A stretch of DNA of 34,464 nucleotides from a virus: IMG/VR virus record IMGVR_UViG_3300042382_000181, positions 1 through 34,464 of that record. One strand, 5' to 3'. Below the pieces are notes generated by a model. The model worked only from the letters and a program-made list of their open reading frames with translations. It searched no databases and was not told the DNA's origin. Positions 1-34,464 of this stretch are shown one piece after another; the first letter of the stretch is position 1, and every line of letters begins with the position of its first letter. Made by a program: the position numbers and the translations under genes.

Positions 1-135
1 CTCGCCATGCTTGCACAGGCTGCGGCAGGTCTGGTCGATCTGCCAGAGCGTTTGCCTCGCCTCCATGCCCAGCCGAGCGGCATCGTACTCGGCCTGCTCG
101 TCGGGCAGCGTGTAGGTGAGCGTTGCGATGGGCAT
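1..135 (-). CDS. Small phage protein, partial copy cut by window edge
   Basis: This is the 5' part of the gene seen whole at 33948-34154, brought here by the end repeat. The start codon is the ATG read from base 135 leftward, and the 3' end is missing because the window starts inside the gene. On a circular genome it is the same gene and should not be counted twice. Confidence 0.8.
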   Translation of the reverse strand, partial: MPIATLTYTLPDEQAEYDAARLGMEARQTLWQIDQTCRSLCKHGE

Positions 136-225
136 GTATAGCGAAGTTACTACGGTTTATCGGCCACACTACACTCGCCGGGTGCACGGTGCGGCCGTAG
201 TGTAGCGATTTCCAGATTCCAGAAA

Positions 226-247
226 TTGATAGGTCGTGGCCTATCAA
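226..247 (-). terminator. Hairpin, possible weak terminator or operator
   Basis: A perfect inverted repeat has arms TTGATAGG and CCTATCAA around a 6-base loop. On the minus strand it is followed by TTTC. It lies downstream of the last gene of the early/lysis string, so a terminator is possible. The stem is AT-rich and the U-tract poor, and a protein-binding operator is equally plausible. Confidence 0.35.
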
Positions 248-273
248 AAGCCGCCCAAATCATATCAGCAAAC

Positions 274-293
274 GCATCATTTTTGATGCTTTT
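274..293. terminator. Hairpin with T-run, possible terminator
   Basis: Arms GCATCA (274-279) and TGATGC (284-289) flank a TTTT loop, and TTTT follows at 290-293 on the plus strand. The stem is only 6 bp. No plus-strand gene reads into it, so on the minus strand it would act only as a weak structure after the 458-772 gene. Confidence 0.3.
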
Positions 294-457
294 CGCATAC
301 GGATTCGGTAAGAAAACCTATGCACTTTTTCTTATGTGACGAGGTTTCCGACGCCGGATACTGCTCGGCGATACTAGGCCGGATACTGGTGCAAGAGCGT
401 CACGGCACGATCTAAGGTGAAGAGCGCACACCGCTACATAGTTGGAAGAGCGCAGCG

Positions 458-9272: not shown

Positions 9273-9451
9273 GATCTGGCCTCCTGTTGCTCGATGTCGT
9301 GGGCCAGCCGCACAAGACGGTCGGCCTGCTGCTCAATCGCCTTCGCGGCCAGCAGCAAAACGATCGCCGTCATGTTCTCTGTCGTGTCCAGCCGGGCGCG
9401 GCGGCGGCACTGCTCGGAAAGTTCCCTGAGCCCAATAGGTGCCAGACTCAT
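9269..9451 (-). CDS. Hypothetical small helical protein
   Basis: A 60-aa protein starting MSLAPIGLRELSEQCRRRAR, highly helical and amphipathic (LLAAKAIEQQADRLVRLAHD), likely coiled coil. It is linked by an ATGA overlap to the upstream initiator gene and a GTGA overlap to the downstream membrane-protein gene. It may bind the replication proteins beside it, such as a helicase loader or inhibitor, but no motif supports this. Confidence 0.6.
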   Translation of the reverse strand: MSLAPIGLRELSEQCRRRARLDTTENMTAIVLLLAAKAIEQQADRLVRLAHDIEQQEARS

Positions 9452-9999
9452 GCCGCCCCCCCTTCCTCGGCCCGGTCAGCCGGTTCCTTACCGGCTGGGC
9501 CGGGCGGATTGGGAGATTGAATCTCTCTATTGGTATTACCCTGAATACCAATAGAGATATTTGAATAGGGGTCACGTAGCGTGTGCGCTCTGTACACGCT
9601 ACGTGTGCGCTCCGTACACGCTACGTGTGCGCTCCGGTCACCGGTCGTGACCGGGGGGGTCACGCTACGTGACCCTAGCGCACACGTAGCGTGACCGGGG
9701 GGGGTCGCCAGTTCGTACTGGCTCCGATTGCTCCCCGTGCCACGCGATACGAGGATTAAAACACCCTCGTCAAGCAGCTGCTGGATGCCCCTGCGGACCC
9801 CGTTGGGAGTCACTCCAAGCACCTTAGCGGCACCTCGAATGCTCATCTTCAGGGTGCATTTCTCGAAGTCTGCCCAATAGAGCACGTAGCAGACCATTAG
9901 CCGGGCTTCGCTGCCCATGCGGCCCAATGAGCCGCCTGAGATCAATGCCCTGTGGCGGCGTCTTAATTCGCCTCTGGCGGTGGGTTTCCTGTCAGGCAT
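9448..9999 (-). CDS. Winged-helix replication initiator-like protein
   Basis: A 183-aa protein. Residues about 15-85 form a winged HTH: ARLMVCYVLYWADFEKCTLK, then MSIRGAAKVLGVTPNGVRRG and a wing LVSRGTGSNRSQYEL, like the N-terminal domain of lambda O-type and other phage initiators. The rest (about 99-183) is low in structure and is encoded by DNA repeats and an AT-rich palindrome that look like the origin. The start ATG at 9999 lies in an 8-base overlap with the primase-helicase stop. It likely binds the iterons inside its own gene and recruits the helicase encoded next to it. Confidence 0.7.
   Translation of the reverse strand: MPDRKPTARGELRRRHRALISGGSLGRMGSEARLMVCYVLYWADFEKCTLKMSIRGAAKVLGVTPNGVRRGIQQLLDEGVLILVSRGTGSNRSQYELATPPGHATCALGSRSVTPPVTTGDRSAHVACTERTRSVYRAHTLRDPYSNISIGIQGNTNREIQSPNPPGPAGKEPADRAEEGGAA
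9524..9704. other. Candidate replication origin: iterons plus AT-rich palindrome
   Basis: Five copies of CACGTAGCGTG in either orientation lie at 9573-9583, 9595-9605, 9617-9627, 9661-9671 and 9683-9693. The middle copies sit on a 22-base tandem period (from 9595 and 9617). An inverted repeat GGGTCACG/CGTGACCC spans 9657-9675, and G-runs lie at 9653-9659 and 9697-9704. Next to them an AT-rich perfect palindrome with 14-base arms (TCTCTATTGGTATT and its complement) covers 9524-9557 in otherwise GC-rich DNA. Iterons beside an easily melted segment inside the initiator gene is the lambda-type origin plan. Confidence 0.65.
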
Positions 10000-11749
10000 T
10001 GGAGCGGCTCCACGGGTCTTTGAACTCCTCGAACTCGCCTGGCATCGAATCAATGAACCGCTGGTACTTCCCGTGGAACCAGAGTTCGATGTCCTTCCGT
10101 TCGCCCTGCCTCAGTTTCTTGCAGTGCCAGCGGACCAGCACCTCCCCGTCACCACCGACCTCGGTAGTTCGCTGCCCAAAAAGGAAGTTGTCCACGTCGA
10201 AATCAATCTGGTTCGACCCCTTGCCGATGTTGCCTATTTCCGTGTTGTGATCCACGCCCTTGGCGATATTCGTGACCAGCACGGTGGCTATATTCCGGCT
10301 GTTGGTGATCTGCCTAAGTTTCTGCAGCACGTCAATGATTTCCCCGGTCTGGTCTGGGAAATGCCGAGTGCTCTTGACCAACTGCAGGTAGTCCACAATC
10401 AGCAGTTTCACGTTGTCTTTCGCCACGGCCCGCTCGATCTTGTCCACGACAATCGGGGCTTCAATCAGTTTCAGACGGTTGCCGATTTCCCCAGCCAAGT
10501 GGGCACCCACCTCTCGGGCGTGAAGATCCTTGTGGATCACCTCCTGCAGAGTCAGGTGGGAAAAGTGTTTGCCGTCGCACCAGTAGGTGACAGCACGGGC
10601 AGCCAAGGCGCTCCGAGTCATCTCGCCAAGGCACCAGGCGGCATTCATCTCCGGGTGCTGGGTCAGGGCCATGATCGCCAGCTGCAGGGCCAGGGCAGAC
10701 TTGCCGACGCCGGGGGCGGCAGCAATCGCCGTCATCTGCCCAAGCGGTAGCCCGCCGTCGAACAGGAGATCGAGCGACGTTAGGCCGGTGGGCAGGGCTG
10801 GGGTCTCGGACTGCTGCACCCAAGCGTCGATCGCGTCCACAAGCGTGGCGGTCGGAGTCTCTTCGGCCGCATCCGTAACCGGAACAGCCTCGTCTGCCGA
10901 GCCGAGCACCGGCAGCCGCTGTCGCTTCCAAGCGTTTGCAATCTGACGCGGGCAGTCGTCAATGTCGTCCTGCCGCAGTCCGACCCGCCGCATCTGCCCC
11001 ATGATCAGCGTCGTTGCCTCGGCCACGCCCCACCCACGCGCCGCCAGGTCGCAGGCCACGGTGAACATCGTCTGCCGACGACCGGCGGCCAGCGTGAAGC
11101 CTTCCTCAATGAACCGTCTGGTGAGGTCGCTCATGCTCTTGGGCTGCACCACCACCGACTGCACCGCTTGCCGCGCCAGCCGGGCCAGCGGGTAGACCCG
11201 CGTCGGGTCGCAGTCCTTCAGGACCGACAGCGGGCGTTGTTCGTGCTTCCAGTTGATGAAGCCCGGCAGCCGCATGATCCTCGGCCAATCGCAAATGGAC
11301 TGATCCGACCCCAGCGCCGAGGCAATCGCCTTCATTCGGACGTGCCACGCCTCGGCGTCAGTCATTGGCTGATCGAGACGCCACCAAGCGTGTATCCCGC
11401 CGCCGCTCTCAAGGATCGCAGTAGGCCAAGGCAGGTCAGCGGCCTTTATGCGGCTCAGTGCGTCTTCGTAGTCCGTGCCGCCGTCAAAGTCAGCGAACAC
11501 GCACCGGGCCAACTTCACGCCCTCGGCCTGGCTGGCACCCTTCTCTTTTCTCGGGTTGGCACCGAAGTAGCCGTGCACACGCTGCTGCTCGTCAGCGTTC
11601 ACCCGCTGCAGCCAATCAACTATGTCCGGTATCTCGGCCAGTGGTGACCAGCGGCGGCCTGCGGATGGCGGTAGCGGGCGAAACTCGATGATGTCCTCGG
11701 GCTCGAAGATCGCCCCTAGAAAATCAATGCACTGCGATAGCGTGTCCAT
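9992..11749 (-). CDS. Fused prim-pol primase and DnaB-like replicative helicase
   Basis: A 585-aa protein. The N-terminal part has a prim-pol (RepB-type/AEP) pattern: FADFDGG (D87, D89), SGGGIHAWW (115-123) and WPRIMRLPG (155-163), the usual metal and nucleotide-binding sites. The C-terminal part is a RecA-fold helicase of the DnaB/RepA kind with Walker A AAPGVGKS (344-351), Walker B near LLIVDYLQLV and a downstream TVLVTNIAKG sensor. One chain thus unwinds DNA and lays primers. I chose ATG 11749 because it follows the HNH gene stop directly. It sits upstream of the winged-helix initiator, completing a replication module. Confidence 0.85.
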   Translation of the reverse strand: MDTLSQCIDFLGAIFEPEDIIEFRPLPPSAGRRWSPLAEIPDIVDWLQRVNADEQQRVHGYFGANPRKEKGASQAEGVKLARCVFADFDGGTDYEDALSRIKAADLPWPTAILESGGGIHAWWRLDQPMTDAEAWHVRMKAIASALGSDQSICDWPRIMRLPGFINWKHEQRPLSVLKDCDPTRVYPLARLARQAVQSVVVQPKSMSDLTRRFIEEGFTLAAGRRQTMFTVACDLAARGWGVAEATTLIMGQMRRVGLRQDDIDDCPRQIANAWKRQRLPVLGSADEAVPVTDAAEETPTATLVDAIDAWVQQSETPALPTGLTSLDLLFDGGLPLGQMTAIAAAPGVGKSALALQLAIMALTQHPEMNAAWCLGEMTRSALAARAVTYWCDGKHFSHLTLQEVIHKDLHAREVGAHLAGEIGNRLKLIEAPIVVDKIERAVAKDNVKLLIVDYLQLVKSTRHFPDQTGEIIDVLQKLRQITNSRNIATVLVTNIAKGVDHNTEIGNIGKGSNQIDFDVDNFLFGQRTTEVGGDGEVLVRWHCKKLRQGERKDIELWFHGKYQRFIDSMPGEFEEFKDPWSRSNA

Positions 11750-14478: not shown

Positions 14479-14523
14479 GTACCAAGTTCGGTAGTTGTGT
14501 ACCGAGTTCGGTAGTTTGGTCAA
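14479..14523 (-). promoter_or_regulatory. Early promoter with two operator palindromes
   Basis: On the minus strand, -35 TTGACC (14518-14523) and -10 TACACA (14496-14501) are 16 bases apart. The spacer contains operator B (14499-14514, minus CTACCGAACTCGGTAC). A second operator A lies at 14479-14494 (CTACCGAACTTGGTAC on the minus strand), exactly 20 bases away, two helical turns, over the expected transcription start. It would drive the 81-aa gene at 14461 and the early operon. The same operator design recurs at 14689-14704 and 15020-15035. Confidence 0.65.
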
Positions 14524-14685: not shown

Positions 14686-14713
14686 ATACTACCAAGTTCG
14701 GTAGTTCGTGCAA
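14686..14713 (-). promoter_or_regulatory. Promoter with operator in the spacer, for the 47-aa gene
   Basis: On the minus strand, -35 TTGCAC (14708-14713) and -10 TAGTAT (14686-14691) are separated by 16 bases. The spacer holds the palindrome CTACCGAACTTGGTAG (14689-14704). The expected start near 14679 gives a leader of about 16 bases with a strong ribosome site before GTG 14663. The design matches the promoters at 14479-14523 and 15017-15044. Confidence 0.65.
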
Positions 14714-15016: not shown

Positions 15017-15044
15017 AATCTACCGACTACGGTAGGTCAGTCAA
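15017..15044 (-). promoter_or_regulatory. Promoter with operator for the HTH gene
   Basis: On the minus strand, -35 TTGACT (15039-15044) and -10 TAGATT (15017-15022) are 16 bases apart, with the perfect palindrome CTACCG-N4-CGGTAG (15020-15035) overlapping the spacer and -10. GGAGG at 15012-15016 precedes ATG 15010. The -10 lies so near the ATG that a transcript from this promoter would begin at about the start codon, so a leaderless message or a slightly different start is possible. Confidence 0.6.
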
Positions 15045-15240: not shown

Positions 15241-16110
15241 ATGACGCTTTCGGATCTGTTTTCAGCGGAATATTCGCCACTTCGGAGGCTCGGGCAAAAG
15301 TCGATCAACTGCTACAACGTCAGCCTTCGCCACTTCGACAGACACTTGGGAAGAGCGGCAGAGCTTTCCGATTTGAGTGATTTAACGCTTTGCCGCTTCC
15401 TCGCGGAGCGTGAGCGAGAGACGTGCCGGGCGACTGCGGCACGCGATCGGGTCCAGATCCTTGCCCTGTGGCGATACGCAAGCCGAAAAAGGTACGTGGA
15501 GCAGTGGCCGGAGGTGCCGATTATCCGCGCCCCCTCACGTACTCCGACCGCCTACACCTCGCAGGAGGTTGCTTTTCTAATCCTTGAGGCGCGGAAGATG
15601 TCCGGTGCCGTGGACGGCATCGCGGCCGGGCTGTGGTGGTCGTCGCTTTTGCTGGTGCTTTGGGAGTCAGGCGCACGGATCACCGAGACAATGTCCGTGA
15701 AATGGCGGGAGGTCGATTTGACCGGCCAGCGGATTACGTTCCGGGCAGAGACTCGGAAAAACCAGACACGCGACATAACCCGCCAGATTTCGCCCCTAAC
15801 GGCCGATCTGCTGACCGGGCGAATCCGTATGGCTAACGAACTCGTTTGGCCGTGGGATCGCTCTCCGTGCCTTATTTGGAAGAGAATGCAGGGGATAGCC
15901 AAGCGGGCCAACGTCCAGTACCGTGGATTCCACGGAATTAGGCGGGCTGCAGTGTCCTACGTGGAGGCAGCGTGCCCTGGCGCCGGGCAGCGGTTGGCTG
16001 ATCATTCCAGCCCTGCTATCACAATCAAAAGCTACCTTGATCCTCGGATTGTGCCGCAGGGTCCGTCCGCAACGGATCTGCTGCCAAAACTAGATTTATC
16101 GGCTGAGTAA
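15241..16110 (+). CDS. int: Tyrosine-family site-specific integrase
   Basis: A 289-aa protein with an N-terminal SAM-like core-binding domain (about 1-95) and a C-terminal catalytic domain. The active-site residues are all visible: R146 in SGARITE, K173 in TRKNQTR, the HGIRR box (H231, R234), H255 in LADHSSPAIT and nucleophile Y265 in IKSYLDP. It would insert the phage into the host chromosome at attP/attB and, with a helper, excise it. It is the only plus-strand gene, divergent from the HTH gene and convergent with the late operon. No good ribosome site precedes ATG 15241. Confidence 0.9.
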   Translation: MTLSDLFSAEYSPLRRLGQKSINCYNVSLRHFDRHLGRAAELSDLSDLTLCRFLAERERETCRATAARDRVQILALWRYASRKRYVEQWPEVPIIRAPSRTPTAYTSQEVAFLILEARKMSGAVDGIAAGLWWSSLLLVLWESGARITETMSVKWREVDLTGQRITFRAETRKNQTRDITRQISPLTADLLTGRIRMANELVWPWDRSPCLIWKRMQGIAKRANVQYRGFHGIRRAAVSYVEAACPGAGQRLADHSSPAITIKSYLDPRIVPQGPSATDLLPKLDLSAE

Positions 16111-26169: not shown

Positions 26170-26363
26170 TTCCTGCGTCTCCGCTTAGGCGTGGCGTCAG
26201 CCGTTTCCACTTCGTGCTCGACGGCAGCCGTCTCAATCAATTCGCCCTGCGTGTCCTCAACGGCAACGTGCTGGGCCAATAGTTGAACGGCAAGCCCGCC
26301 GGGGATCTCTGCCGTCTGCCCTTTGCGGTAGCCACGCCAGGCACGGGTGAACTTCATCTTCAT
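26166..26363 (-). CDS. Small conserved phage protein of the head module
   Basis: A 65-aa protein starting MKMKFTRAWRGYRKGQTAEI, then PGGLAVQLLAQHVAVED and an acidic/basic tail ending PKRRRRK. Such small F-x-R-x-WRGYR proteins occur in head modules of many siphophages between capsid and connector genes. ATG 26363 overlaps the glycosyltransferase stop (TGATG). Function unknown. Confidence 0.65.
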   Translation of the reverse strand: MKMKFTRAWRGYRKGQTAEIPGGLAVQLLAQHVAVEDTQGELIETAAVEHEVETADATPKRRRRK

Positions 26364-27097
26364 CACTGTGGCACACTCCATGCAGTTTCAGGTCGCTTGC
26401 TGGTGTTCGTGAAATCCGTAGTCCACTGGAAAACAGGCTGGCCAAGGTTCTGGCCCGGCCACGTCACCACGTATTCGCCGTGGCCCAGAACCACGCGCGG
26501 CGTGATGTAGACGCGGTTGCCACTCTCGCGCCAGTTGCGCCAAAAGTGGATGTCGGGATCGACGCGGCCTTCGTTCCAAGAACCGTCAGGGCCTGGCGTT
26601 GAAAGGAACCAGGGTTTCTTCGCACGCTTCAGGGCCGCCGTAGATATCACGGTGAGGCCGAAGTGTGCCGCATCCACTTCCTGCACAGGCTCGGCAAACC
26701 ACGACGCAGGCAGGCTTGTGGTGCCGTCCTTGGGTGGATTGTCCAGCGTGCCCTTCAGCGTCAGCATCGGCCTGCCGTCTTCCCGCTTGGTTTGCAGCCC
26801 GGTGATGGCATCGCACTGGAAAGTCATTGCCATGGCGAACAGGTGTTCCACGTCTTCCTTGGTAAAGAACGTGTCGTAGTCGATCGTCAGCAGGTATTCG
26901 CACTTGTCGATGAACTGCTCCATCACGCGGGTGTTCACCTGGTCCCAGAACGCACCAGTGCCCATCGTGGGGCGAATGCCCAGCGGCATGAGTGCCTGTG
27001 CCCATGCGAAGTGATTGGCCGTAAACGAGAGCCTGGGCATCGAGAGCACGGCTTCCACCCGGATGTCGGCTTCTGTGCCACCTACCTTGACGATCAT
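26363..27097 (-). CDS. Glycosyltransferase-like protein inside the head cassette
   Basis: A 244-aa protein with a GT-A-type motif, YLLTIDYDTFFTKEDVEHLF (D73, D75 as DxD-like metal site), after a first strand MIVKVGGTEADIRVEAVL. The later VDPDIHFWRNW segment fits an acceptor or base loop. It stands directly after the capsid gene and its terminator and before the connectors, which suggests it glycosylates a virion protein. ATG 27097 follows AAGGG by six bases. The exact family is uncertain. Confidence 0.7.
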   Translation of the reverse strand: MIVKVGGTEADIRVEAVLSMPRLSFTANHFAWAQALMPLGIRPTMGTGAFWDQVNTRVMEQFIDKCEYLLTIDYDTFFTKEDVEHLFAMAMTFQCDAITGLQTKREDGRPMLTLKGTLDNPPKDGTTSLPASWFAEPVQEVDAAHFGLTVISTAALKRAKKPWFLSTPGPDGSWNEGRVDPDIHFWRNWRESGNRVYITPRVVLGHGEYVVTWPGQNLGQPVFQWTTDFTNTSKRPETAWSVPQ

Positions 27098-27105
27098 GGG
27101 CAACC

Positions 27106-29370: not shown

Positions 29371-30643
29371 CTGGCGTGTCCTCCTGTTCGGCCTGGTCTT
29401 CGGCGTCATCCGCCGGGCTTGTCTCGTCTTCAATCGCTGGCATCGGCTCCGGTGCCGGTGCTTGCTGCCCAACCTTGTCCAGCGTGGTCATGTTCAACTG
29501 CACGAAGTGCTTGTCGCCTTCAGGCCCGATCGGGTTCAGGTTTTCCAGTTCGCGGATCTCGTTCACTGTCATCCAACCGTTCTGGAGAGCCGAAACGTAG
29601 TAGGCCGATCGGCTGGCGTGGTCGCCACGAAGCAACCCGCTCACGCTGTGCTCGGCAAAATACGTTTCGTCATCCACGATAAGGTCGCGGCTGATGGCTG
29701 CTTCCCACCGCTTCAGGTGCGGCAGCAGGCAGTGCTGCACAAACTCCGTGCCTTGCACTTCAATGTTCGAGTAGGTCGATCGGGTCAGATCCTGAATCAT
29801 GTGGGGCGGCACGCGGAACGCCCGGCAAATCTCGATGACTTGGTACTGCCGCGTCTCAAGGAACTGGGCCGCCTCATTGCTGCCGGAGAGTTCGTGGGCC
29901 TTCACGCCGTTGGGCAGGACTGCCGTTCGGAAAGCTCGGTCAGCGCCCCGGTGCATCCGCTCCCACTGCTCACGCAGACGCTCGGCGGCTTCCACCGGAA
30001 TCGGGTTCTCCGACTCGAGCACGATGCCGGGCCGGGCACCGTTCCCGAAGTACGTGCTACCGTGGGCCTCAAGAGCCTGCGAAAGCCCGATGGCGTTCTG
30101 AAAGATCTTGTACGTGGGGATCGCCTTGATGCCGTCCTCTGTGGTGAACCGCAGGGCGAATATCTGGCTCTGGCTGTAGATCGTCTGTTTGCCGCTCGGC
30201 TCCCGGTATCGGTAGCGGAGGGTGCCATCCTCAAGACGCTCGGCTTCCATCCGGCTCGGGTGCAGCGGCCACAACTCAGAGATGGCACCGCGAGCACCTG
30301 GGCGAATCTCGGCGTAGGAAGCACCGTAATGCAGGTACATCCCCGTCATCCAATCCCTGAACTCCTGCGCCGTCTGCCACGGGTTTGGCTGCGTGTGCAG
30401 CAGTCGATAGACGGGGTGCGTGCTGGCTTTCGCCTTGCCACCGTTGGCAAGCCGTTCGTAGACGTGCAGCGGCAGGGACGATACCGCATCGGAGATGACA
30501 CGGATGCAGGCTGTGTACGCAGAGCAGGCCATCGAGTTGTCGGCCGTCACGCGGATGCCTGACGGCGTGCGGTTGCTGCCGCCATCGGTCCAGTCAATCC
30601 CGCGAAGTTCAAACATCTTGTAGTCGGGCACTGCTTCGTTCAT
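29360..30643 (-). CDS. HK97-type portal protein
   Basis: A 427-aa protein from ATG 30643, in a 4-base ATGA overlap with the large terminase stop. It shows the portal pattern: VTADNSMACSAYTACIRVIS, DAVSSLPLHVYERL, HPVYRLLHTQPNPWQTAQEF, YLHYGASYAEI and later FRVPPHMIQDLTRSTYSNIE. The C-terminus is acidic and disordered (DETSPADDAEDQAEQED). A longer frame up to 31090 runs through the terminase gene and is not coding. The portal is the DNA entry gate and the seat of the tail. Confidence 0.92.
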   Translation of the reverse strand: MNEAVPDYKMFELRGIDWTDGGSNRTPSGIRVTADNSMACSAYTACIRVISDAVSSLPLHVYERLANGGKAKASTHPVYRLLHTQPNPWQTAQEFRDWMTGMYLHYGASYAEIRPGARGAISELWPLHPSRMEAERLEDGTLRYRYREPSGKQTIYSQSQIFALRFTTEDGIKAIPTYKIFQNAIGLSQALEAHGSTYFGNGARPGIVLESENPIPVEAAERLREQWERMHRGADRAFRTAVLPNGVKAHELSGSNEAAQFLETRQYQVIEICRAFRVPPHMIQDLTRSTYSNIEVQGTEFVQHCLLPHLKRWEAAISRDLIVDDETYFAEHSVSGLLRGDHASRSAYYVSALQNGWMTVNEIRELENLNPIGPEGDKHFVQLNMTTLDKVGQQAPAPEPMPAIEDETSPADDAEDQAEQEDTPDGN

Positions 30644-31860
30644 ATGCTCATGATGTCCCAGGATTGTTCGGGCGCTGGTGCCGTCGATGTCGCGTGGATG
30701 CCAAGGGCCATAGTCAGCGCCACAATGCCGTCGATTCGCTCGTTGGATTTCTGCTTGCTTGGCTTGATGTTGCCTGCGTGATCGCTCTGAATCGCCACAT
30801 TCGACGCCTGCCACGCCAGCACCGGATGCCCGCCGTGCAGGAGACGGCCGCCCACCACGAGCGCTTCCAGCATCTTCGCGCACGAACTCATGCTGCCGTA
30901 TCCCTGCCCAAATCCTAAGACGTTCACGCCATCGCCTTGCAGTTGCGTGGACAGCTGCGTGGCGTTCCAGCGGTCGATCGCCACCTGGCGGACGTTGTAT
31001 TTCTTCGTCAGCACCATGATGTCGGCCCGCACCTGGTCGAAGTCGGTGACGTTCCCGTGCGTCAGGTGGAGTTTCCCTTCCTTTGCCCACTGGTCATACG
31101 GCACACGATCCCGCTTCACCCGCTCCCGCATGTTCTCTTCGGGAATCCAGAAATGCGGCTCCACCCAGAAGCGGCCATCGTCCAGTTGGAACAGCAGGCA
31201 GAAGCATGTGGTATCGAACGTGCTGGCAAGGTCGAGCCCCGCGAAACACTCCCGGCCGTCGAGCATCACCGGGCAAGGCTCGTTACCCTGCGCCCAGTGA
31301 TCCATCCGCAGCCACCGCGTATCCTGCTCTGTCCACTGGTTCAGGTGCAGCCGCCGGAACGTGTTCTCTTCGCTTGGCATGTCCTGTGCCCGCTTGCACC
31401 GCACCCGCAGGTCGTCGAGTTTCACGCTTACGCCAAGGTTCGGATTGGCTTTCTTCCACGTCGCTGCCTTCGTCCAATCGTCTTCCGCATCGGCGGCGTA
31501 GATCGCAGGCAGGAAGGTGGGATCTTTGATCGCCCCGTCCTGCACCGCCAAGGCATACTTCCAGATCTCCCAGCAGATGCTCTTGCGGTCGAAGCCTGCC
31601 GTGGTGATCGCCACGCACAGCGGCTGCCGCCTGGCTCCCGTCGAGGTGGTCATAACATCCCAGAGTTCACGGTCGGACTGCGCGTGCAGTTCGTCGAATA
31701 TGATCCCGTGAGCGTTCAGCCCGTGCTTTGTAAACGCCTCGGCAGACAGTGCCTTGTACGTGGAATGCGTGTCCTCTCGAACGATCGAGTTACGGAACAC
31801 CCGCAGGCGTGCCCGCAACTTGGGCGAGTTTTCCACGCAGACTTTCGCCATCTCGAACAC
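30640..31860 (-). CDS. terL: Large terminase, C-terminal part (Walker B and nuclease)
   Basis: A 406-aa chain from GTG 31860. It carries the Walker B IIFDELHA (D56, E57), a coupling motif ITTAGF, the nuclease motif FAGLDLAS (D210), AIDRWNA (D296) and a late acidic NERIDGIVALTMAL. It lacks Walker A, which lies in the upstream half (31879-32253). It is open in the same frame right up to base 31878 directly behind the TAG of the 51-base element. Without that element the protein would read AADRDQARLVFEMAK as normal terminases do. Translation from GTG 31860 alone would give an incomplete motor. It overlaps the portal by ATGA. Confidence 0.85.
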   Translation of the reverse strand: MFEMAKVCVENSPKLRARLRVFRNSIVREDTHSTYKALSAEAFTKHGLNAHGIIFDELHAQSDRELWDVMTTSTGARRQPLCVAITTAGFDRKSICWEIWKYALAVQDGAIKDPTFLPAIYAADAEDDWTKAATWKKANPNLGVSVKLDDLRVRCKRAQDMPSEENTFRRLHLNQWTEQDTRWLRMDHWAQGNEPCPVMLDGRECFAGLDLASTFDTTCFCLLFQLDDGRFWVEPHFWIPEENMRERVKRDRVPYDQWAKEGKLHLTHGNVTDFDQVRADIMVLTKKYNVRQVAIDRWNATQLSTQLQGDGVNVLGFGQGYGSMSSCAKMLEALVVGGRLLHGGHPVLAWQASNVAIQSDHAGNIKPSKQKSNERIDGIVALTMALGIHATSTAPAPEQSWDIMSI

Positions 31861-31878
31861 TAGGCGGGCTTGGTCACG

Positions 31879-31929
31879 CTATTGCCGGGGCCTCGCCCCC
31901 CGGCAGTTAAGCCGAGGGGCGAAGCCCCG
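31879..31929 (-). mobile_element. 51-base palindromic element splitting the large terminase gene
   Basis: The insert is 17 codons long (CGG ... CAA TAG) between GAC and CGT GAC CAA. With the preceding C it forms a 20-bp RNA hairpin (31911-31930 with 31885-31904, loop UUAACU) with 18 Watson-Crick and two G-U pairs. Its last codon is an in-frame TAG. The frame after it is unchanged. Removal restores the usual AADRDQARL motif. Identical GAC codons flank it (31930-31932 and 31873-31875). It could be a palindromic insertion, a readthrough element or a bypass element. No other copy was noticed in the window. Confidence 0.75.
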
Positions 31930-32253
31930 GTCTGCGGCACAGGAATAAATCTCTGCTCCTGGCTCGCCATCGAAAAGAAGTTTCAGTGCGATGCCAGCAC
32001 ACAGCGTGGATTTCCCATTCTTTCGCGGGATTGCCAGCAGTGATGTTCTGAATTGACGAACGTTGCCGTTCATCGTGCCGAACAGCGTGGAGATGTACGC
32101 CTTCTGCCACGGCTCAAGCAGGAACGGCTTGCCGCCGAGCTCGCCCTTGGAGTGGGTCAAGTTCTCTTGAAAGAAATCGACGGCGATCGACGCCGACTCT
32201 TTATCAAGCGAACATCTTGGAGTCGCGGTCGTTTTCTTGCGGGCCTTGGTCAA
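31879..32253 (-). CDS. terL: Large terminase, N-terminal part (Walker A)
   Basis: A 124-aa frame. It contains the adenine-binding Gln in EPWQKAYISTLFG (Q50) and Walker A LLAIPRKNGKSTL (PRKNGKS, 76-82), typical of phage TerL of the P27-partner class. The last 15 residues (GFAPRLNCRGARPRQ) come from the hairpin element and not from terminase. The gene overlaps the small terminase by 50 bases. As an isolated peptide it lacks Walker B and nuclease. Joined to the downstream part across the element it would give about 520 aa, the normal TerL length. Confidence 0.85.
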   Translation of the reverse strand: MTKARKKTTATPRCSLDKESASIAVDFFQENLTHSKGELGGKPFLLEPWQKAYISTLFGTMNGNVRQFRTSLLAIPRKNGKSTLCAGIALKLLFDGEPGAEIYSCAADRGFAPRLNCRGARPRQ

Positions 32254-32819: not shown

Positions 32820-33134
32820 TTATGGGGTTTTTTGTTGTTCGTGCCTGGTTTTGCGTCCGTGGCAGGACAGGCACAGCGTCTGACCGTTCGCCACTTCGTA
32901 CCGATCGCCACCCTGACGAACAGGCACGATATGGTCGGCCTGAGCAAAACGCTGGCAGACCACTCCGCACCCCCGGCATTGCCACGCATCGCGCAACAGG
33001 ACAGCCTGACGCCAAGCCCTGTGCCTTCTGTCGCAATACCCACGGGCTGCCGCGTTGGGCCTGGCCGTGTCGTCCCGCTTTGTGCGTGACGTTTGCAGGC
33101 GGGGCGGGGTATGACTGGGCATTCGTTGTGGCAT
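32820..33134 (-). CDS. HNH endonuclease of the packaging module
   Basis: A 104-aa protein. The HNH core has CRGCG (C53, C56), ADHIVPVRQGG (D67, H68), a mid Asn N83 and CLSCHGRKT (C88, C91, H92). Small HNH nucleases next to the terminase genes assist cos cutting in several siphophages. The N-terminal 30 residues are basic and disordered. The gap to the small terminase (32663-32819) holds two small inverted repeats and no gene. Confidence 0.85.
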   Translation of the reverse strand: MPQRMPSHTPPRLQTSRTKRDDTARPNAAARGYCDRRHRAWRQAVLLRDAWQCRGCGVVCQRFAQADHIVPVRQGGDRYEVANGQTLCLSCHGRKTRHEQQKTP

Positions 33135-33958: not shown

Positions 33959-34154
33959 CCATCTCGCCAGGAATCATCGCCCGTATTTCCTCCGCGAGCC
34001 GTCGCTCCTCCGCTGTCGGCTCGCCATGCTTGCACAGGCTGCGGCAGGTCTGGTCGATCTGCCAGAGCGTTTGCCTCGCCTCCATGCCCAGCCGAGCGGC
34101 ATCGTACTCGGCCTGCTCGTCGGGCAGCGTGTAGGTGAGCGTTGCGATGGGCAT
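33948..34154 (-). CDS. Small phage protein, full copy
   Basis: A 68-aa protein beginning MPIATLTYTLPDEQAEYDAA, then helical (GMEARQTLWQIDQTCRSLCK) with an acidic C-terminal helix (TAEERRLAEEIRAMIPGE). Helical proteins with a similar TLPDE...WQ-D pattern occur near other phage terminase modules. It is the first gene of the presumed late operon, after the control region. A cut copy lies at 1-135. Function unknown. Confidence 0.7.
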   Translation of the reverse strand: MPIATLTYTLPDEQAEYDAARLGMEARQTLWQIDQTCRSLCKHGEPTAEERRLAEEIRAMIPGEMVEI

Positions 34155-34464
34155 GTATAGCGAAGTTACTACGGTTTATCGGCCACACTACACTCGCCGG
34201 GTGCACGGTGCGGCCGTAGTGTAGCGATTTCCAGATTCCAGAAATTGATAGGTCGTGGCCTATCAAAAGCCGCCCAAATCATATCAGCAAACGCATCATT
34301 TTTGATGCTTTTCGCATACGGATTCGGTAAGAAAACCTATGCACTTTTTCTTATGTGACGAGGTTTCCGACGCCGGATACTGCTCGGCGATACTAGGCCG
34401 GATACTGGTGCAAGAGCGTCACGGCACGATCTAAGGTGAAGAGCGCACACCGCTACATAGTTGG
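34020..34464. repeat. Direct terminal repeat, right copy
   Basis: This is the second copy of the 445-base end repeat, offset by 34,019 bases from the first. The right copy shows the small 68-aa gene complete (33948-34154), while the left copy cuts it at the window edge. The non-coding part of this copy (34155-34464) carries the same inverted repeats as 136-445. Confidence 0.95.

Follow-up and report, generated by a model that had tools for sequence, protein, structure and literature searches.

To our knowledge, efficient translational bypassing of long gaps has been established only for gene 60 of phage T4 and for the byp elements of yeast mitochondria, so that the rules of bypassing rest on very few natural examples. 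The gap in T4 gene 60 is 50 nt long, and ribosomes slide with high processivity over less than 56 nt, beyond which processivity drops (PMC11194080). The T4 segment has been proposed to be a degenerate intron relic that protected against a homing endonuclease (PMC5009743), and bypassing has also been speculated upon, in a different gene, in the Corndog paper. Hairpins of about 50 nt and of one design are here described at six or more sites, one in the large terminase gene (terL) of an uncultivated virus and at least five more, in different genes of unrelated phages. A search of the open-access literature found no description of such a hairpin cassette family.

The window, that is, the whole stretch of DNA that was analyzed (34,464 nt; IMG/VR virus record IMGVR_UViG_3300042382_000181, positions 1 to 34,464), has ends that overlap exactly over 445 bp and is a complete genome, either circular or terminally redundant. 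It encodes a tyrosine integrase, and hence the phage is probably temperate. A 24-nt repeat (TACCGAGTTCGGTAGTT...) occurs four times and might provide operators beside the integrase, an HNH endonuclease gene is located upstream of terL, and the end of another ORF contains a second perfect 20-bp hairpin together with several CACGCTACGTG palindromes (Table 1). The terL gene is on the minus strand and, as reported in the preliminary description, a 51-nt hairpin element with an in-frame TAG indeed separates its Walker A and Walker B parts. The part upstream of the insert contains Walker A and matches the first third of the Pfam TerL_ATPase profile, while the downstream part contains Walker B, profile positions 64-176 and then the nuclease domain. 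The stem of the hairpin is perfect over 19-20 bp (folding z-score -3.9, computed on the complementary strand), and skipping the segment yields a product of 520 aa that aligns gap-free with an intact relative at 96.9% identity. The insert had originally been placed at 31879-31929. Its length stands but, judged against the other sites, its boundaries appear better placed 3 nt downstream, and with this shift the joined product retains the full AADRDQAR motif and does not lose two residues.

Table 1. Features of the window and of its interrupted terL gene (positions are those of the window).
Feature	Position	Strand	Remarks
terL exon 1 (Walker A half)	31927..32253	-	Pfam TerL_ATPase 1-61; start TTG at 32253 uncertain
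Proposed take-off codon CGG (Arg), stem base	31927..31929	-	TGG, CGG or CTG at the five other sites
Proposed skipped segment, 51 nt	31876..31926	-	Missing in 77/80 nearest relatives
5' arm of 19-bp stem, from first base of take-off codon	31911..31929	-	
Loop TTAACT	31905..31910	-	
3' arm of stem	31886..31904	-	
Tail GCAATAG	31879..31885	-	In-frame TAG at 31879-31881
Proposed landing triplet CGT	31876..31878	-	First two bases are those of the take-off codon
terL exon 2 (Walker B, nuclease)	30640..31875	-	Restarts at GAC CAA; Pfam TerL_ATPase 64-176
HNH endonuclease gene	32820..33134	-	Upstream of terL
Tyrosine integrase	15241..16110	+	
24-nt repeat, four copies	14480..14503, 14500..14523, 14690..14713, 15021..15044		Possible operators
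ORF with second perfect 20-bp hairpin at its end	9448..10053	-	Hairpin and palindromes: 9517-9564, 9573-9605, 9595-9693
PHROG-1574 ORF	26363..27103		Unknown function
Overlapping ends	1..445, 34020..34464		445 bp, exact

The same site in terL carries a hairpin insert in four other IMG/VR contigs. Two of these (L002 and L003), which come from other metagenomes, are identical to the window over the 5,339 and 4,348 nt that they share with it, and a third (L004), with ~89% identity to the window, has an identical insert of 51 nt. Assembly error, which had been raised as a possibility, is excluded by this recurrence in several contigs. A more diverged contig (L130) has its hairpin at the same position, where the insert is 50 nt long, shifts the frame and contains no TAG. 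The window-type insert is present in three different backbones, with an open frame in both exons of each copy. Comparison with related terL genes, which had been recommended at the outset, showed the site to be empty in 77 of the 80 nearest TerL relatives in IMG/VR; some Planctomycetota, the only phylum searched, hold TerL relatives at about 51% identity. All carriers of the insert share short flanks, GGAGCAGAGATTTAYTCCTGTGCYGCAGAC upstream and CGTGACCAAGCCCG downstream, that are absent from every empty relative. From the sequences this looks like co-conversion when the insert moved between backbones, the alternative being a functional constraint on those bases.

A screen for insertions of 30-120 nt across all fetched relatives returned one further strongly folding kind. 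In the PHROG-1574 gene, a homologue of which is also encoded by the window, a 50-nt insert separates GAFW from DQVN and is situated between TGG and GAC CAA (site B). It shifts the frame, TGA is reached two codons in, and a pattern scan detected 15 contigs that carry it, with differing downstream alleles and exon 2 open in 15/15; in a variant (L323, L338 and L339) the landing TGG is the same as the take-off codon. Scan matches from a Mycobacterium genome and from IMG/VR pointed to a minor tail gene of mycobacteriophages that is split between ..GGRSPKW and LND.. by 53-58 nt. The insert has 55 nt in Sbash and Mycofy1, 53 nt in Spartacus, ThetaBob and Renaud18, 54 nt in Pollywog and Kersh and 58 nt in one more IMG/VR phage, so that this site alone has lengths in all three residues modulo 3 with both exons conserved. 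All seven carriers named here are cultured phages, plaque-forming ones (Sbash, Spartacus, ThetaBob and Kersh) among them, and their split gene is annotated either as a pair of minor tail proteins or, for Sbash, as a single frameshifted ORF; in Charlie and a M. abscessus prophage the gene is uninterrupted. The last three sites emerged from one last degenerate scan and from R2, a covariance model built on 11 elements. They are in another TerL family (site D, 47 nt between LRYR and LNVWT, four lineages), in the TerL of L339, which is of that same family and has an empty LRYR site (50 nt between RAEGL and NIHALLFDE, CTG for both take-off and landing), and in a P22-type portal gene (52 nt between FLVDPYFR and ESDMS, the exons covering Pfam P22_portal positions 17-148 and 152-583). 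Over about 1.5 Mb of loci scanned, all R2 matches above 45 bits were at the six sites, with the sense score higher than the antisense, while weaker matches include apparent terminators. Each carrier has one cassette copy except L339, which has two (TerL, CTG/CTG, and the PHROG-1574 homologue, TGG/TGG).

The six sites have a common anatomy in which the gap is 47-58 nt long, in all three residues modulo 3, and the two ORFs on either side of it encode one conserved protein whatever their relative frame, as is characteristic of bypassing. The stem, 19 bp long in most cassettes, opens with the first base of the codon immediately upstream of the gap (UGG, CGG or CUG); at site D it has 18 bp and opens with the third base. 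The stem-loop includes the proposed take-off codon, another hallmark of bypassing. Downstream of the stem arms, which enclose a loop of 4-6 nt, there is a tail that varies in length, and the gap closes with a triplet that has the same first two bases as the take-off codon at 6/6 sites (chance about 1e-7). The take-off/landing pairs are CGG/CGT, TGG/TGC or TGG, TGG/TGA, CGG/CGG or CGA, CGG/CGA and CTG/CTG, all three bases being matched in some copies of three sites (TGG/TGG, CGG/CGG and CTG/CTG). In the stem alignment 99.5% of cells are paired, double changes occur in 8 of 19 pairs, and the covariation score exceeded that of all 500 shuffles. The non-Watson-Crick pairs on the sense strand comprise 30 G-U and 0 A-C, which indicates that the structure is maintained in the mRNA and is not simply a DNA palindrome. 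A stop directly 3' of the take-off codon, also associated with bypassing, is not general, the next codon being GGC, GGT, GCT, GTC or GTT. A Shine-Dalgarno-like tail is found in many copies; it was rejected as a universal feature since it is missing from the window copy and from site D. A nascent-peptide signal does not appear to be general among the cassettes; no obvious common peptide precedes the six sites.

Both sides of the gap are under purifying selection. In most pairs of insert carriers, dN/dS of exon 2 is about 0.06-0.2, and PHROG-1574 carrier pairs have mostly values of 0.06-0.2 at dS of 0.1 to >1. Exon 2 of two phages with inserts of 55 and 58 nt differs by 42 synonymous and 2 non-synonymous codons. 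The insert was perhaps gained recently by recombination in some carriers, and part of the exon divergence may therefore predate the insertion. In three carrier pairs, the exon-2 codons ahead of any ATG, GTG or TTG have 13 synonymous and 0 non-synonymous changes (rough p about 7e-8), indicating that the downstream frame is translated from its first codon, which speaks against reinitiation.

The segment in the window is thus quite probably a small mobile cassette that is bypassed by ribosomes. It is likely that a family of such mobile hairpin cassettes of ~50 nt is dispersed in unrelated tailed phages, including laboratory-grown ones, inside essential virion and packaging genes, where they would be neutralized by programmed translational bypassing. 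According to this proposal, the ribosome would translate terL up to CGG at the foot of the 19-bp mRNA hairpin, where the peptidyl-tRNA-Arg would release CGG. The ribosome would then slide across 51 nt until the peptidyl-tRNA pairs anew with the CG of the CGU immediately before exon 2, and decoding would restart at GAC to give a single full-length TerL of 520 aa. We infer all three elements of the proposal from sequence comparison, namely joining on the ribosome, CGG and CGU as the take-off and landing codons, and spread by homing-like recombination. The third landing base is often unlike that of the take-off codon (CGU, UGC, UGA), and this would weaken re-pairing if bypassing were T4-like. Bypassing of the insert had already been suggested in the preliminary description and is favored by the comparisons, but not between the two GAC codons that were named. 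A GAC-to-GAC bypass was rejected, because there is no GAC before the gap at site B and two conserved residues would be lost. The stop codon in terL is incidental to bypassing, since other copies are without one.

It is extremely improbable that the TAG is instead read through, such that TerL gains an insert of 17 residues. The 51 nt do keep the frame in the window and in L004, with TAG as the sole stop within the insert, but this reading, also put forward at the outset, cannot join the halves of L130 with its TAG-free 50 nt, and it fails for the copies in other genes (47-58 nt), most of which shift the frame. The window phage uses TAG as an ordinary stop, with 11 of the 43 ORFs examined ending in it, and no tRNA gene was found in that genome; recoding of TAG was rejected on these grounds. 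An insert that merely disrupts terL, as in a recently disabled copy, would mark a defective phage or prophage. As the integrase is present, a defective provirus could last for a while, and intact terL relatives are found in the same samples as the interrupted ones. Such a loss of function is, however, very improbable given a circular genome with identical copies in two other metagenomes, an insert in several backbones with open and selectively constrained exons, and viable, plaque-forming phages that hold the same kind of insert.

Reinitiation beyond the hairpin, so that each interrupted gene gives two polypeptides, would agree with the annotation of two minor tail proteins in several mycobacteriophages and with the ATG at exon-2 codon 5 in Spartacus and ThetaBob. 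This is nonetheless quite improbable, because no ATG, GTG or TTG is present in the first 42 exon-2 codons of Sbash and Mycofy1, or in the first 37 of L233/L215, and these start-free beginnings change synonymously only. With two polypeptides, the Walker A and Walker B motifs of TerL would also end up in different chains, and the portal protein would be cut in two. Precise excision of the segment from the mRNA, as a mini-intron of 47-58 nt, accounts equally well for frame-independence, intact exons and a conserved RNA hairpin, and such removal at the RNA level would leave the same comparative pattern as bypassing. It is unlikely, however, since the segments are far below the size of self-splicing introns; they consist of a single hairpin with no Rfam match, while the catalytic core of a group I intron takes hundreds of nucleotides. 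Nor would excision lead one to expect a last triplet that begins with the same two bases as the codon before the gap, and we know of no bacterial machinery for removing introns of such small size. There is a precedent for splicing in the same minor tail gene, as a known spliced group I intron is located in phage Baka (28186-28450 of its record) five codons upstream of the hairpin site (PMC3706429), making this a shared hot spot.

The suggestion that the element is a small palindromic mobile repeat is borne out in that it behaves as if mobile, but no further copy was found elsewhere in the scanned phage genomes or in the sampled bacterial genomes. The palindrome search that had been proposed, carried out on viral and genome collections with both exact and degenerate patterns, revealed no host repeat. 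In a pattern scan that covered 84,980 species genomes, the matches were mainly terminator-like hairpins, plus one prophage tail gene, model R2 was positive in 1 of 401 Mycobacteriaceae genomes (the one already known), and a sample of Planctomycetota, scanned without a positive control, yielded no match. Scans with the short loop core GGCTTAACTGCCGGGG were discarded, their matches being unrelated coding sequence. Hence the cassettes do not resemble REP or other dispersed bacterial palindromic repeats, which have many host copies, mostly intergenic and in either orientation. An intron-derived origin, like that proposed for T4, is possible for the cassettes described here.

If the proposal is true, bypassing, known from few cases, is far more common, and its elements spread as mobile cassettes, perhaps at homing-endonuclease targets. 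The six sites would then be a natural comparative set in which stem length, codon matching, gap length and tail vary independently. In addition, many phage genes considered 'split' or 'frameshifted' would be annotation errors. Among the carriers of cassettes are M. smegmatis phages kept by many laboratories.

Of the known systems, the group I introns of Cluster J mycobacteriophages (Baka, LittleE) also interrupt conserved virion genes but, unlike the cassettes, they are 265 and 819 nt long, and their removal by RNA splicing has been demonstrated (PMC3706429). The terminase of Streptomyces phage phiHau3 is another frame-disrupted terL for which bypassing, at UUA, was proposed, although its disruptions are short and centered on UUA. 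It was rejected as a member of the family as it has no 19-bp hairpin cassette. Besides the KGWG-TTA site, phiHau3 has an apparent second frame disruption in terL at TTA (TCT TTA ... TCC, positions 2901-2933). The byp elements of Magnusiomyces capitatus mitochondria resemble the cassettes in being multiple short bypassed inserts in essential genes, some with matches at two of three codon bases (PMC5009743). They differ in that 81 copies are present in one yeast mitochondrial genome, whereas the cassettes were seen at most twice per tailed-phage genome and have one conserved hairpin design. In T4 gene 60, too, a phage gene contains a gap of ~50 nt, the take-off codon is part of a stem-loop and is related to the landing codon, two ORFs in different frames are joined, and a link to a homing endonuclease or group I intron has been suggested (PMC5009743). 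However, T4 uses GGA/GGA with UAG directly after take-off and a nascent-peptide signal, while the cassettes use UGG, CGG or CUG, often matched at two of three bases and with no general stop, and have a longer perfect stem (18-19 bp) in many genes and phages.
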